Source of the DNA: Rhizobium sp. FKL33
GTDB lineage: Bacteria; Pseudomonadota; Alphaproteobacteria; Rhizobiales; Rhizobiaceae
Length of the DNA: 64,000 nucleotides
Assembly: GCF_005222915.1 (NCBI RefSeq)
Contig: NZ_STFX01000019.1
Coordinates: 62,001 to 126,000, forward strand
Direction of reading: 5' to 3'
The notes beneath the pieces are model-generated. The model was not told where the DNA came from and did not search any database. It saw only the letters and a program-made list of their open reading frames with translations. Shown here piece after piece: positions 3,759 through 55,735 of the stretch (the first letter of the stretch is position 1; every line of letters begins with the position of its first letter). Position numbers and translations under genes: made by a program.

Positions 3759-5615
3759 ATGATCTTTCGCTCCATTTCCCGGCTGTTCGAAGGCTGGATC
3801 GATCCGTTTCGTCCCCGCGCCGATTATCGTCCGCCCGAAAAGGCGCTGGCCTTCGTTTGGCATTTCGTCTCCCAGGCCAAAGGCGCCTTTTTCGCCATGC
3901 TCGCGCTCGGCGGCGTGGTGGCGATGCTGGAGGCCGGGCTGTTCTGGTTCACCGGCCGGCTCGTCGACATTCTCGACGCCGCCAAGCCTGCCGATGGCTG
4001 GGCGGGCCTCATCGGCAGTCATGGTCTCGACCTTATCGGCATGGCCTTCATCGTGCTGGTCGTGCGCTTTCTCGCCATCGCGCTCGGCGCTTTGGTGGAG
4101 GAGCAGACGGTGGTGCCGGGCTTTTTCAATCTCGTGCGTTGGCAGGCGCATGCGCAGGTGTCGCGCCAGTCGCTGACCTTCTTCAACAACGAATCCTCCG
4201 GTCGCGTGGTCAGCAAGGTCTGGTCCGCGGGCCAAGCCACCGGCGATCTCATGGTGTCGCTGTTGCAGGTCGTCTGGTTCATGCTCGTCTACACCATGAC
4301 GACGCTGACGCTGATCACCAGCCTCGATCTCAGGCTCGGCGGCATCGTCGCGGCCTGGATCGTCGTCTTCGGCCTGCTCGCCCGCTATTTCGTGCCGCGC
4401 GTGCGCAAGCATGCCCGGGAGACGGCGGAAATGTCGTCGATGATCAATGGCCGCCTGACCGACAGCTACGCCAATATCCAGACGCTGAAGCTGTTCAGCC
4501 GGGAAGAAGACAACGACCGCTTCATCAGCGACGGTTTCGAGCAGTTTCGGCAGACGCTGATCCGCTTCACCCGCCATCTGACCGGCATCCGCGCCTCGCT
4601 CGCATTCCTCTCGGGTCTGATGATCACCGCCATCGGCGCCATGGCGATAGATCTCTGGATGCGCGGCGAGATCACCACGGGATCCGTCGCGTTCACGCTC
4701 GGCCTCGTGCTGCGCATGAACATGCTGCTCGGCCGCATGATGGGCCAGTTCAACGCGGTGATGCGGAATATCGGCACGATCCAGAATTCCGCCGAGATGT
4801 TGTCGGCGCCCATCACCCTCACCGACAAGCCTGGCGCGCCTGAACTCATCATGCGCGAACCCTCGATCCGCTTCGAGGATATCCGCTTTCACTATGGCCG
4901 CGAGGCGGGCGTGATCGAGGGGCTGTCGCTGGAAATCAGGGCAGGGGAGCGGGTCGGCATCGTCGGGCGCTCTGGGGCGGGCAAGTCGACCCTCGTCAAT
5001 CTGCTGCTGCGCTTCTACGACGTGCAGGGCGGCCGCATTCTCGTCTCCGGGCAGGATGTGCGGGAGGTCAAGCAGGAAAGCCTGCGCAAGCATATCGGCA
5101 TGGTCACACAGGACACGGCGCTGCTCAACCGTTCGATCCGCGACAATATCCTGTTCGGCCAATCCGATGCGACGGATGCGGCGATGGTCCGAGCCGCAGC
5201 GGAGGCCGAAGCCGATGGCTTCATCGCCGAACTGGTGGATTACAAGGGACGCAAGGGTTATGACGCCCATGTCGGCGAGCGCGGGGTCAAATTGTCCGGC
5301 GGCCAGCGCCAGCGCGTGGCGATTGCCCGCATGCTGCTCAAGGACGCGCCGATCCTCGTCTTCGACGAGCCGACTTCGGCGCTCGATTCCGAAGTCGAGG
5401 CGGCGATCCAGGACAATCTGGAGCGCCAGATGCAGGGCAAGACGGTGCTGGTCATCGCCCACCGCCTGTCCACCATTTCCCACCTCGATCGGCTCGTGGT
5501 CATCGATGGCGGAAAGATCGTCGAAGAAGGCGCCCATGAGACGTTGATCGCCCAAGGCGGCATCTATGCGGATCTCTGGGCGCGGCAATCCGGTGGGTTC
5601 ATCGCGCCCGACTGA
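3759..5615 (+). CDS. ABC exporter, fused permease and ATPase (paralogue)
   Basis: This 618-residue exporter half is closely similar in layout to the protein encoded at 1096-2949. It has six predicted helices, then Walker A GRSGAGKST near residue 404, LSGGQRQR near 512 and Walker B ILVFDEPTSALD near 530. I chose the ATG at 3759 (MIFRSISRLFEGW) because it aligns with the paralogue's start. The same frame stays open back to 3429, but that stretch is antisense to the toxin gene. No clear ribosome site precedes it. The two genes are probably an ancient tandem duplication later split by the TA module. Confidence 0.88.
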   Translation: MIFRSISRLFEGWIDPFRPRADYRPPEKALAFVWHFVSQAKGAFFAMLALGGVVAMLEAGLFWFTGRLVDILDAAKPADGWAGLIGSHGLDLIGMAFIVLVVRFLAIALGALVEEQTVVPGFFNLVRWQAHAQVSRQSLTFFNNESSGRVVSKVWSAGQATGDLMVSLLQVVWFMLVYTMTTLTLITSLDLRLGGIVAAWIVVFGLLARYFVPRVRKHARETAEMSSMINGRLTDSYANIQTLKLFSREEDNDRFISDGFEQFRQTLIRFTRHLTGIRASLAFLSGLMITAIGAMAIDLWMRGEITTGSVAFTLGLVLRMNMLLGRMMGQFNAVMRNIGTIQNSAEMLSAPITLTDKPGAPELIMREPSIRFEDIRFHYGREAGVIEGLSLEIRAGERVGIVGRSGAGKSTLVNLLLRFYDVQGGRILVSGQDVREVKQESLRKHIGMVTQDTALLNRSIRDNILFGQSDATDAAMVRAAAEAEADGFIAELVDYKGRKGYDAHVGERGVKLSGGQRQRVAIARMLLKDAPILVFDEPTSALDSEVEAAIQDNLERQMQGKTVLVIAHRLSTISHLDRLVVIDGGKIVEEGAHETLIAQGGIYADLWARQSGGFIAPD

Positions 5616-52537: not shown

Positions 52538-53407
52538 ATGACCAGCATTTCCTCTGCGAGCAGCAGCTATAGTTATTATCAGACCTCGATGAAATCGAAT
52601 TTCAGCAAGCTGGACAGCGACGGCGACGGCAAGGTGTCGTCGGATGAATTCACGACGGGCAAGCCGTCCGACGTCACGTCGAAACAGTCGAGCCAGTTGT
52701 TTTCGTCGCTCGATTCAGACGGCGACGGCTCCGTGTCCGAGACGGAAATGACGAGCAGCGTGACCTCCTCCGATCCCTTCGCCCAGATGTCGGGCGACGC
52801 TGTCGCAGTGATGATGCAGATGCAGTCCGGTTCGTCCTTCGGCTTCTCCGCGTCCGACGCCTATTCGTCCATGGACGCCGATTCCGACGGCAGCGTCACC
52901 CAGGCTGAATTTGTCTCCGCCCGGCCGGATGGCGTAAGCGAAGAGGATGCGCTTTCGCTCTACAACTCGATCGACACGGAAGGAACCGGCTCGATCACCG
53001 AGGAGCAGTTCAGCGCGAGTATGGAGAATGCCGGCGCCGGTGCGCCGCCCGTCGGCGGAGCCTCCGGCGAGGACGACTCGAGCGCCGTCTTCGATTCCCT
53101 CGATACCGATCAGGACGGCGTCGTGAGCGCCGAGGAACTCGCGGCTGCGAAGCCGGACGACGTCAGCGCCGAGGATTCCGCATCGCTGTTCGACGCCCTG
53201 GACGAGGACTCGAGCGGCGGCGTGACGCTGGACGAATTCGAAAGCGCGCGACAGAGCTTCATCGCCAATACCCGCATCTCGATCGGCGGCGACGAGGACG
53301 AGGACGACACGTCGTCTTCTTCCACATCGACGGTGTCGGATGTTCAGTCGCTTCTCGATACGCTCAGCACCACGACTACCTCCGAAAGCGACAGCACGGG
53401 CGCTTGA
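52538..53407 (+). CDS. Six-EF-hand calcium-binding protein
   Basis: This 289-residue protein starts MTSISSASSSYSYYQTS and has six EF-hand loops: DSDGDGKVSSDEF, DSDGDGSVSETEM, DADSDGSVTQAEF, DTEGTGSITEEQF, DTDQDGVVSAEEL and DEDSSGGVTLDEF. The fourth and sixth are less canonical. No Sec signal is visible, though the Ser/Tyr-rich N-terminus could serve non-classical or specialised secretion. It resembles EF-hand proteins that databases name XopAW-like T3SS effectors, but no secretion genes lie near. It is very acidic and Ser-rich. Confidence 0.85.
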   Translation: MTSISSASSSYSYYQTSMKSNFSKLDSDGDGKVSSDEFTTGKPSDVTSKQSSQLFSSLDSDGDGSVSETEMTSSVTSSDPFAQMSGDAVAVMMQMQSGSSFGFSASDAYSSMDADSDGSVTQAEFVSARPDGVSEEDALSLYNSIDTEGTGSITEEQFSASMENAGAGAPPVGGASGEDDSSAVFDSLDTDQDGVVSAEELAAAKPDDVSAEDSASLFDALDEDSSGGVTLDEFESARQSFIANTRISIGGDEDEDDTSSSSTSTVSDVQSLLDTLSTTTTSESDSTGA

Positions 53408-53431
53408 GCGGTGCTCCGAGCGTCTTGAGCG

Positions 53432-53459
53432 GCGGCTCCCATCCCGGGGGCCGCTTTTT
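53432..53459 (+). terminator. Terminator after the EF-hand gene
   Basis: GCGGC pairs with GCCGC, extended by CCC/GGG across a bulge, and followed by five T, 25 bases after the stop. Confidence 0.8.
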
Positions 53460-53480
53460 CTTGTCGGCTGAACGCTAGGC

Positions 53481-53600
53481 AAAAAAAGAGGGCCACGAGA
53501 AATCTCGGGCCCTTTATAGTTGTGAAGGTAAATTAAACCTCCAGAGGGGAACAGCTGATACGGCGGCACTGGGAGGAAAACCGCCATGTGCATCAGCTGT
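53481..53600 (-). ncRNA. abcR: AbcR-like (alpha-r15 type) small RNA
   Basis: Read on the minus strand, a roughly 120-nt unit has three structural parts: a 5' stem ACAGCTGAT/ATCAGCTGT enclosing GGCGG/CCGCC with a loop carrying TTTTCCTCCCAGT; a single-stranded CCCCTCTGGAGGTTTAA linker; and a terminal hairpin (AGGGCC-A-CGAG / CTCG-GGCCCT) ending in seven T. The CUCCCA anti-Shine-Dalgarno loop and adjacency to a trxB-LysR locus match the AbcR riboregulators that, with Hfq, repress ABC-transporter mRNAs in Rhizobiales. A -10-like CATATC lies at 53605-53610. Only one copy is seen here, while rhizobia often have two. Confidence 0.7.
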
Positions 53601-53655
53601 GTGCGATATGATGTTTTATTGTGCATTGCGCAAGGCGTCGCTGCGCATGACAGCC

Positions 53656-53670
53656 ATGCAAAAGTTGCAT
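53656..53670 (-). promoter_or_regulatory. LysR-type binding palindrome upstream of the sRNA
   Basis: ATGCAA-AAG-TTGCAT is a perfect T-N11-A palindrome, centred about 64 bases upstream of the inferred sRNA start, the standard activation position for LysR regulators. The adjacent lsrB/vtlR-like gene is the natural candidate binder. The rest of the gap to 53829 is AT-rich without a gene. Confidence 0.6.
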
Positions 53671-53829
53671 GATGGTTAGTGATCCGTTTCTAATTGGTTG
53701 AAACCGCTATATTTTATCCAAATGCGCAAATCTGCGCCGCCAGCATGAGAACACTTTTCATGCTGATAATTTCGTTGGGGCGCCATTTTTTAAGTCCAGC
53801 GCCGGCCAGCTCTATCGATTTTCGGCAGA

Positions 53830-54726
53830 TCAGAAATTCCAGTTGCGCGCCTTGGCGACGATGAAATCGCGGAAGACCTTGAGCTTGGCGGCGTTCTTCA
53901 TTTCGCTGGGATAGCAGAAATAGGTGTCGAAGGAGGGGATGTCCGCATCCGTCACCAATTGCACGAGGCCGGGGTCGCGGCCGACGATATAATCCGGCAG
54001 CATGGCGATGCCGATGCCGAGCAGCGCGGCGCGCTTGATCGAGGTTAGGCTGTTGATCTGCAGCACCGGCGAGCGCGGGCTACCTTCAGGGCGACCGGCG
54101 ATTTCGAGCCAGTTGACGTCGAGCAGGTAATTCGGCGCGGGCTCACCGAAGGTGATGATGCGGTGCTGGTCGAGCTCTTCCAGCGTCTGCGGCTGGCCAT
54201 AGCGGCTGATATAGGACGGCGCCGCATAGACATGCATATGCACGGTGAATAGCTTGCGCTGAATCAGGTCCGACTGTTGCGGCTCGCGCAGGCGGATGGC
54301 GCAATCGGCGTGGCGCATGTTCACATCCAGCTCCTCGTTGTCGAGGATGAGCTGGACCTGCATGTCGGGATAGAGGCTCAGGAATTCCTGCACCTTGTCG
54401 GTCAGCCAGCCCTGGCCGAGACCCACGGTGGTGGTGATGCGCAGCCGGCCCGTCGGCTTTTCCGTGGTCTCGGTCAGCTGGATCTTGACCATTTCGAGCT
54501 TCATCAACACGTCATGGGCGGTGCGATAGAGCAACTCGCCCTGTTCGGTGAGGATCAGGCCGCGGGCGTGACGGTGGAAGAGTTTGGTGTTGACCTCCGC
54601 TTCCAGCGCGCTGACCTGGCGGCTGATGGCGGACTGGGACAAATGCAGCTTGTCGGCGGCATGGGTGAAAGACCCGGCTTCCGCGGCGGCATGGAAAATT
54701 CTCAGCTTGTCCCAGTCGAGCGACAT
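53830..54726 (-). CDS. lsrB: LysR-family regulator, LsrB/VtlR-like
   Basis: This 298-residue LTTR begins MSLDWDKLRIFHAAAEAGSF and has the helix-turn-helix AADKLHLSQSAISRQVSALE (about 19-38) and a co-inducer domain. The short 34-base gap to trxB and the downstream AbcR-like RNA match the trxB-lsrB-AbcR synteny of Sinorhizobium, Agrobacterium and Brucella, where the protein controls the sRNA and redox or envelope genes. The assignment is by synteny and family; sequence identity was not computed. Confidence 0.85.
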   Translation of the reverse strand: MSLDWDKLRIFHAAAEAGSFTHAADKLHLSQSAISRQVSALEAEVNTKLFHRHARGLILTEQGELLYRTAHDVLMKLEMVKIQLTETTEKPTGRLRITTTVGLGQGWLTDKVQEFLSLYPDMQVQLILDNEELDVNMRHADCAIRLREPQQSDLIQRKLFTVHMHVYAAPSYISRYGQPQTLEELDQHRIITFGEPAPNYLLDVNWLEIAGRPEGSPRSPVLQINSLTSIKRAALLGIGIAMLPDYIVGRDPGLVQLVTDADIPSFDTYFCYPSEMKNAAKLKVFRDFIVAKARNWNF

Positions 54727-54760: not shown

Positions 54761-55735
54761 TTATTCGGCTGCCTGCGCCACATGCAGATGACCGGCGAGA
54801 TAGCGCTCGGCCTCCAGCGCCGCCATGCAGCCCATCCCGGCGGCGGTGATCGCCTGGCGGAACGTGTCGTCGGTCACGTCGCCGGCGGCGAAAACGCCCT
54901 CGACGCTGGTCGCCGTCGAATCCGCCGCCGTCCACAGGTAACCGTTCGGCTTCATACGCAGTTGGCCGGTAAAGAGTTCGGTGGCCGGCGCATGACCGAT
55001 GGCGACGAACAGGCCGTCGATCGGCCGCTCGGTGATCTCGCCGGTCCTGGCGTTGCGAATCTTGACGCCGGTGACGGAGGCCGGCATCGGCGGATGCAGC
55101 TGTTCGCCGGTGATTTCGGCGATCTCGCTGTTCCACATCACCGAGACATTTTCGCGCTGGAACAGCCGCTCCTGCAGGATCTTTTCCGAACGGAAGCTGT
55201 CGCGGCGATGCACGACGGTGACCGACTTGGCGATATTGGAGAGATAGAGCGCTTCCTCGACGGCCGAATTGCCGCCGCCGACCACGATCACGTCCTTGTT
55301 GCGATAGAAGAAGCCGTCGCAGGTGGCGCAGGCGGACACGCCGAAGCCCTGATACTTCTTCTCGGAATCGATGCCGAGCCACTTGGCCTTGGCGCCGGTG
55401 CAGATGACGATCGTCTCGGCGATCCAGGCCTGGCCGGAATCGGTCGTGACATGGAAGGGGCGGCTGGAGAGATCGACCGAAGTGACGAGGTCGTTGATGA
55501 TCTCTGCGCCGACATGCTTGGCCTGACCGAGCATCTGCTCCATCAGCCAGGGGCCCTGGATCGGGTCGGCGAAGCCGGGATAGTTTTCGACATCGGTGGT
55601 GATCATCAGCTGGCCGCCTTGCTCCATGCCGGCGATCAGCACCGGTTCGAGCATTGCGCGCGCTGCATATATGGCGGCGGTGTAGCCGGCCGGGCCGGAG
55701 CCGATGATCAAGACCTTGGTGTGGCGAGCGGACAT
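54761..55735 (-). CDS. trxB: Thioredoxin reductase
   Basis: This 324-residue flavoenzyme reduces thioredoxin with NADPH. The FAD motif VLIIGSGPAGYTAAIYAARA is at the N-terminus, the redox-active CATCDGFF near residues 137-144, the NADPH motif VVGGGNSAVEEALYL follows, and the FAD motif FAAGDVTDD near the end. It is intact and probably co-transcribed with lsrB. Confidence 0.96.
   Translation of the reverse strand: MSARHTKVLIIGSGPAGYTAAIYAARAMLEPVLIAGMEQGGQLMITTDVENYPGFADPIQGPWLMEQMLGQAKHVGAEIINDLVTSVDLSSRPFHVTTDSGQAWIAETIVICTGAKAKWLGIDSEKKYQGFGVSACATCDGFFYRNKDVIVVGGGNSAVEEALYLSNIAKSVTVVHRRDSFRSEKILQERLFQRENVSVMWNSEIAEITGEQLHPPMPASVTGVKIRNARTGEITERPIDGLFVAIGHAPATELFTGQLRMKPNGYLWTAADSTATSVEGVFAAGDVTDDTFRQAITAAGMGCMAALEAERYLAGHLHVAQAAE

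Follow-up and report, generated by a model that had tools for sequence, protein, structure and literature searches.

A probable LsrB-activated AbcR small RNA gene downstream of trxB and lsrB in Rhizobium sp. FKL33

Introduction

Does the 422-base gap between lsrB and a gene for an EF-hand protein in Rhizobium sp. FKL33 hold a small RNA (sRNA) gene, and if so, to which family does it belong, which regulator is likely to control it and does it have sister copies in the genome? The gap lies in a stretch of 64 kb that was analyzed as a whole (hereafter, the window). From its letters, an initial annotation had read an AbcR-like sRNA of about 120 nt on the minus strand, with a LysR site at about -64, and had pointed to the known link between LsrB/VtlR and AbcR RNAs in Rhizobiales. 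Papers are cited here by PMC number. The link is indeed published for two species: in S. meliloti, the dependence of AbcR1 on LsrB/VtlR was established by Northern blot, reporter fusion and EMSA (PMC8844928), and in A. tumefaciens, that of AbcR1 on VtlR by Northern blot and EMSA (PMC7486931). AbcR1 is driven by LsrB and AbcR2 by RpoH1 in S. meliloti; Hfq interacts with both RNAs, and many mRNAs for transport and metabolism are repressed through their anti-Shine-Dalgarno (aSD) motifs (PMC8844928).

Results

We searched the window with cmscan and all 4227 Rfam families, and the only match above its gathering score was to ar15 (RF02345, AbcR), at 53598-53484 on the minus strand; one weaker overlapping match of the same clan was dropped by the program. 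The match covers the model from 1 to 112, its full length, with 112.8 bits (gathering cut-off, 40 bits) and an E-value of 5.4e-23, which bears out the AbcR-like sRNA that had been proposed. The unit is 118 nt long, starting at about 53598 and ending with the T-run at 53481, and the 422-base gap that houses it lies between the stop of the EF-hand gene (53407, plus strand) and the stop of lsrB (53830, minus strand). The genes and the parts of the RNA are as follows.

52538-53407, plus strand: protein with several EF-hands (Pfam), converging on the sRNA gene
53481..53598, minus strand: AbcR (ar15) sRNA gene, about 118 nt (Rfam match 53598-53484, fold z -5.93, covariation)
53481..53513, minus strand: rho-independent terminator hairpin and U-tract (fold; helix 4 with two-sided changes at 8/10 pairs)
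53538..53549, minus strand: CCCCUCUGGAGG, second CU-rich motif (aSD2), in the linker into hairpin 2 (columns with little or no variation across 30 copies)
53568..53579, minus strand: hairpin 1 loop UUUCCUCCCAGU (12 nt), carrying the anti-Shine-Dalgarno motif aSD1 (free of pairing in the MFE structure, conserved in 30 copies)
53830..54726, minus strand: lsrB/vtlR, LysR-type regulator of 298 aa (Pfam HTH_1 and LysR_substrate; gene order)
54761..55735, minus strand: trxB, thioredoxin reductase, upstream of lsrB (Pfam Pyr_redox_2; CATC motif in the translation)

The next gene had been called lsrB/vtlR, with trxB beyond it, and the first call agrees with the LysR-type Pfam domains, and both with the published order trxB-lsrB-abcR. 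The name lsrB is an assignment from gene order and from similarity to 80 named loci; among the best 25 of 55 NCBIfam matches, no model named LsrB was present. Two further features touch the gap: a terminator-like site at 53431-53455, which is the EF-hand gene's own, and a program-made antisense open reading frame of 303 aa (52715-53626, minus strand), which overlaps part of the gap and is putative at most.

The predicted fold consists, in order, of a 5' hairpin with a 12-nt loop, a CU-rich linker with a second hairpin, and the terminator. Its minimum free energy is -47.9 kcal/mol, compared with -26.9 +/- 3.5 in 200 shuffles, none of which was as low (z -5.93). The ar15 family is described with three hairpins, a UCCUCCC loop and a rho-independent terminator (PMC3712013), and all of these are present here, with UCCUCCC in the first loop. 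The CUCCCA anti-SD loop, the linker and the strong terminator of the earlier reading were likewise recovered: the loop of hairpin 1 contains CCUCCCA, the linker reads UUCCCCUCUGGAGG, and the terminator is GC-rich and has seven U. A role of the aSD1 loop is published (PMC7486931, PMC8844928, PMC3712013), as is that of the second aSD motif (PMC8844928).

To compare this locus with its relatives, we built a covariance model from the window and 29 relatives and found 131 AbcR copies in the window and the 80 named lsrB loci, which are the best 80 of 484 confirmed LsrB-similarity loci (86-99% identity). Across 112 distinct rows, standard pairs occupy 99.0% of pair cells and two-sided changes occur at 18 of the 30 pairs, figures that lean towards structure because the alignment was fitted to the model; neither covariation value was reached in any of 500 shuffles, and slid versions pair 29-61% of cells. 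In 79 of the 80 named loci, AbcR lies downstream of lsrB on the same strand, in at least one copy each, and the first copy begins 82-335 nt beyond the end of the lsrB match; this conservation is partly shared descent because the loci are close relatives. The exception is L102 (Rhizobium sp. FKY42), where an unfiltered search of about 3 kb on either side of lsrB gave no AbcR, at most 6.6 bits being reached; the near relatives L031 and L032 retain a copy. The spacing from lsrB to abcR is 231 nt here (53599-53829), compared with about 95-126 nt in Shinella, Ciceribacter and R. tropici-like loci. The extra spacer is poorly conserved and contains an inverted repeat (53741-53765) that may mark the end of the lsrB transcript.

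Upstream of the sRNA gene, with the Rfam start at 53598 taken as +1, three elements can be placed.

53605..53633, minus strand: putative core promoter with TTG (-35 to -33) and CATATC (-12 to -7); TTG and CATA columns 100% in 80 first copies
53647..53659, minus strand: LsrB/VtlR box GCATGGCTGTCAT, an exact match to GCAT-N3-TG-N3-T, at -61 to -49
53656..53670, no strand: perfect palindrome ATGCAAAAGTTGCAT, T-N11-A, centered at -65, with T at -71 and A at -59

The LysR site that had been placed at about -64 stands in part. The palindrome is exact, occupies a conserved place and is centered at -65; it grows by one pair to 53655-53671 (arms of 7 nt), and its word, with at most one mismatch, is expected 0.16 times in the window. 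The published LsrB/VtlR consensus, GCAT-N3-TG-N3-T (PMC7486931), is, however, the overlapping element at -61 to -49 and not the palindrome alone, the two having only GCAT in common, and -61 to -49 is also where the LsrB box of S. meliloti abcR1 lies (PMC8844928). The box by itself is uninformative because it occurs 4 times in the window against 8.7 expected, below chance, and its weight comes from position and conservation. It is found exactly 85 times across the 131 promoters, always at -61 and nowhere else between -110 and +12, in 64 of the 80 first copies, a set that includes the window, and in 21 of the 51 later ones. In the 16 other first copies, the sole deviation is A for G at -61 (8 copies) or A for T at -54 (8 copies); CAT (-60 to -58), C (-55), G (-53) and TGC (-49 to -47) are conserved in 100% of first copies. 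This wide comparative test of the LsrB box yields a column pattern, (G/A)CAT-N2-C-(T/A)-G-N3-TGC from -61 to -47, that is present in 80/80 first copies and is slightly longer than the published consensus. The T and A of T-N11-A at -71 and -59 are kept in 65 of the 80 first copies. In a scan for dyads, -54 and -65 were the two top centers: the dyad at -65 has a mean of 3.88 (6/6 of the arm positions counted in the window) and a second one, GCATG-N5-CATGC centered at -54, a mean of 4.70 (5/6 in the window), the next center reaching 3.16. The two-dyad arrangement is not new, since T-N11-A in tandem is already noted in PMC8844928.

A sigma-70 consensus scan of the gap found no promoter, so the core elements were read from conservation. 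The AbcR1-type layout, with GCAT-N3-TG-N3-T upstream of a sigma-70-like promoter beside lsrB, is present at this locus. The AbcR2 type has a CTTGAA-N16-CCTATAT promoter without an LsrB box (PMC8844928); we rejected this RpoH1-driven type for the window, which has TTGCGC/CATATC and the LsrB box. Among the later copies without the box, Shinella loci included, 24 of 30 carry an RpoH-like TTGAA...CCATAT promoter that resembles the published AbcR2 promoter; the search expression is not specific, matching 0 of the 21 later copies with the box but 16 of the 80 first copies.

A permissive search of the genome (5.31 Mb, 60 contigs, 98.2% complete) gave one ar15 match, with the LsrB-type promoter. A passage of PMC3712013 (2013) states that ar15 is always present in several copies per genome in Rhizobiaceae and Brucellaceae, which does not hold here; because near-complete relatives also have one match, we take several copies to be a statement on distribution rather than a defining trait. 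Under stricter filters, nine genomes of the same genus gave one match in six (G000, G002, G004, G005, G007 and G008, of which G002, G005 and G008 are 83-86% complete) and two or three in the other three; the near-complete relatives with a single match include G004 (4 contigs) and G069 (5 contigs). Three copies are reported for S. meliloti Rm1021 (PMC7143759). Relative to the several-copies statement as it stands in that passage of PMC3712013, the single LsrB-type copy appears mildly new. Three tandem AbcR copies lie behind lsrB in L033 (R. setariae, 4137-4804) and L034 (Rhizobium sp. RYN_488, 4117-4713), with the exact box in copies two and three and an A-for-T variant in copy one. In four R. 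tropici-like loci (L074, L077, L078 and L084), the first copy has the box plus a TTGAAG -35 element, and the second has the LsrB box without an RpoH-like promoter, so arranged that control of the AbcR pair in this group seems, from its promoters, to be unlike that in S. meliloti.

The genome (5.31 Mb) has two instances of the full layout, GCATNNCWGNNNTGC-N32-36-YATAY, and none of the reversed control: one precedes abcR and the other an ar14 RNA on contig C38 (Rfam, 97 bits). The genome has five ar14 matches, four of them above the cut-off. A second ar14 copy, L160, has the box at -95 from the Rfam start, compared with -96 in the first, and was missed by the strict layout search because its -10 region does not fit YATAY. 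The two boxed ar14/NfeR1 copies on C38 (L159 and L160) are about 3.9 kb apart, and each has a fourth predicted hairpin 5' of the Rfam match with CCUCCUCCC in its loop; ar14 is published with three hairpins (PMC7143759). No exact LsrB box was found at the corresponding place in the other three ar14 matches (L157, L158 and L161), and L161 has a box-like stretch with two mismatches further upstream.

A looser box search of the genome (at most two mismatches) gave 25 matches, compared with 3 reversed. All 16 that were inspected are crossed by an open frame of at least 80 codons, and such frames say little because abcR's own box has one too; the remaining 15 inspected matches, except one before an ar14 RNA, are unproven. 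When L111-L130, 20 of these 25 places, were scanned with Rfam at gathering scores, abcR and ar14 were the only matches. Two of the places may be mentioned in their own right: L119, on contig C17, is a box-like match with different spacing and no clear product, and L112 is a one-mismatch box beside a gene that, from reading the sequence, is ferredoxin-like.

The genome encodes Hfq (109 bits). The complement of the hairpin 1 loop ahead of a start codon, TGGGAGGAA-N2-9-ATG, has 17 genome matches (reversed, 0), of which three were set aside: one is the antisense of the sRNA and two have frames of just 13 and 32 aa. The other 14 start frames of at least 161 aa. Five of these are Pfam-confirmed ABC substrate-binding proteins (L134, L135, L138, L140 and L146), one is an ABC permease (L136) and one, L137, is a probable binding protein with no Pfam match at 1e-5 and an NCBIfam score of 24 bits against a cut-off of 700; the other seven are enzymes, iron-sulphur or redox proteins and the MFS-like L147 (MFS_1 below cut-off). 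The control AGGAGGAA-N2-9-ATG, which is one mismatch from the loop complement and so is not independent, has 30 matches (4 reversed). Of these, 15 were scanned, chosen after their frames had been seen, the unscanned ones including the long frames L172, L176, L178 and L190 and others that are short or internal-looking. The scanned set contained six transporter parts (one ABC binding protein, two DctP, one NMT1-like protein, one ABC permease and one ABC ATPase), so that 6/15 in the control stands against 6/14 in the test (7/14 with L137). Test and control are thus not told apart by protein class, and the targets are no more than predictions. A narrower control, AAGGAGGAA, has 4 matches, 3 of them with long frames, and the pattern for the second motif has 3 (reversed, 0), including one ABC ATPase. 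A search of PMC3927594 found no passage on an AbcR RNA under the names tried.

Discussion

Our data point with high confidence to a single AbcR1-type (ar15) sRNA gene that would be activated by LsrB and would pair with, and lower, uptake and catabolic mRNAs. As far as sequence can tell, its family, structure, promoter site and gene order are those of AbcR1. By analogy with relatives, we expect that the gene is also transcribed, that LsrB binds its promoter and that the RNA works with Hfq and represses targets. LsrB, encoded just upstream on the same strand, would most likely act as an activator that binds from -72 to -47 and brings sigma-70 RNA polymerase to the TTG/CATATC promoter. The resulting RNA of 118 nt would then, probably with the aid of Hfq, use its CCUCCCA loop and the linker CCCCUCUGGAGG to pair with ribosome-binding sites of uptake and catabolic mRNAs, and this pairing would lower their translation.

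That the gap merely combines a chance palindrome with GC-rich hairpins is refuted by the Rfam E-value of 5.4e-23, and the fold (z -5.93) and the position-specific conservation also speak against it; common as short palindromes and GC-rich hairpins are, the probability of this is negligible. A decayed or silent ar15 copy might be suspected from the single copy in the genome and from the related locus L102 with no detectable copy, but the match is full length, its helices, conserved motifs and promoter are intact, and L031 and L032 keep their copies, which makes decay very improbable. A little more weight, still small, goes to a real AbcR gene whose site serves another LysR-type regulator or is no longer active, the RNA arising from the core promoter alone or by read-through from lsrB. 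In favor of this explanation, T-N11-A is common to LysR sites in general and the GCAT box is below chance in the window (4 against 8.7); yet the site matches the consensus published for LsrB in particular, at the position published for it, and box and -10 spacing recur in the genome only at ar14, a family of which one member is activated by LsrB in S. meliloti. We retain the LsrB-activated AbcR1-type gene as the preferred reading.

The locus is of a known type: the family, the regulator, the LsrB site, the order trxB-lsrB-abcR and the anti-Shine-Dalgarno action are all already published, and the present analysis supplies the correct annotation for a gene overlooked by protein-based gene finders. 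S. meliloti AbcR1 (SmelC412, ar15) shares the family, the length of about 120 nt, the three hairpins, the two aSD motifs, the lsrB neighbor and the box at -61 to -49. It differs in standing in tandem with an RpoH1-driven AbcR2, whereas one copy is found here, and in its far neighbor, the ArsR gene SMc01226 in place of the EF-hand gene, both S. meliloti AbcR sRNAs lying between SMc01226 and lsrB (PMC3712013). Similarly, A. tumefaciens C58 has the order trxB-vtlR-abcR and the box GCAT-N3-TG-N3-T, and the activation by VtlR is a result from that species; in contrast to the single copy here, trxB and vtlR are followed there by abcR1 and abcR2 in tandem (PMC7486931). NfeR1 (ar14) of S. meliloti resembles AbcR1 as an LsrB-activated sRNA (PMC10746234) that has aSD loops and a target range predicted to overlap (PMC10746234, PMC7143759); unlike AbcR1, it belongs to a separate family, which sits elsewhere in the FKL33 genome and has six NfeR1 loci in S. 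meliloti (PMC7143759). A genome with one natural AbcR gene would be a simpler host for separating the functions of AbcR1 and AbcR2.

Taken together with the ar14 loci, a rewired network of aSD sRNAs is conceivable for this Rhizobium lineage, in which LsrB is the main entry, the RpoH1-driven AbcR2 is gone, AbcR is of the LsrB type and single, or in tandem in sister species, and LsrB drives two ar14 copies with a fourth anti-SD hairpin; we put this forward tentatively and consider it somewhat doubtful.

The regulator itself offers one further observation. Cys142 and Cys271 of LsrB are present in 81/81 sequences, and position 234 is Ala here and Cys in 64 of the 81. Positions 142, 234 and 271, with an offset of 4, are presumably Cys146, Cys238 and Cys275 of S. 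meliloti LsrB, which have redox roles. A literature search for LsrB with C238 returned no paper. Since a cysteine found in most relatives is missing from LsrB here, the signal to which it responds could be another one, and redox sensing by LsrB may differ in this lineage.
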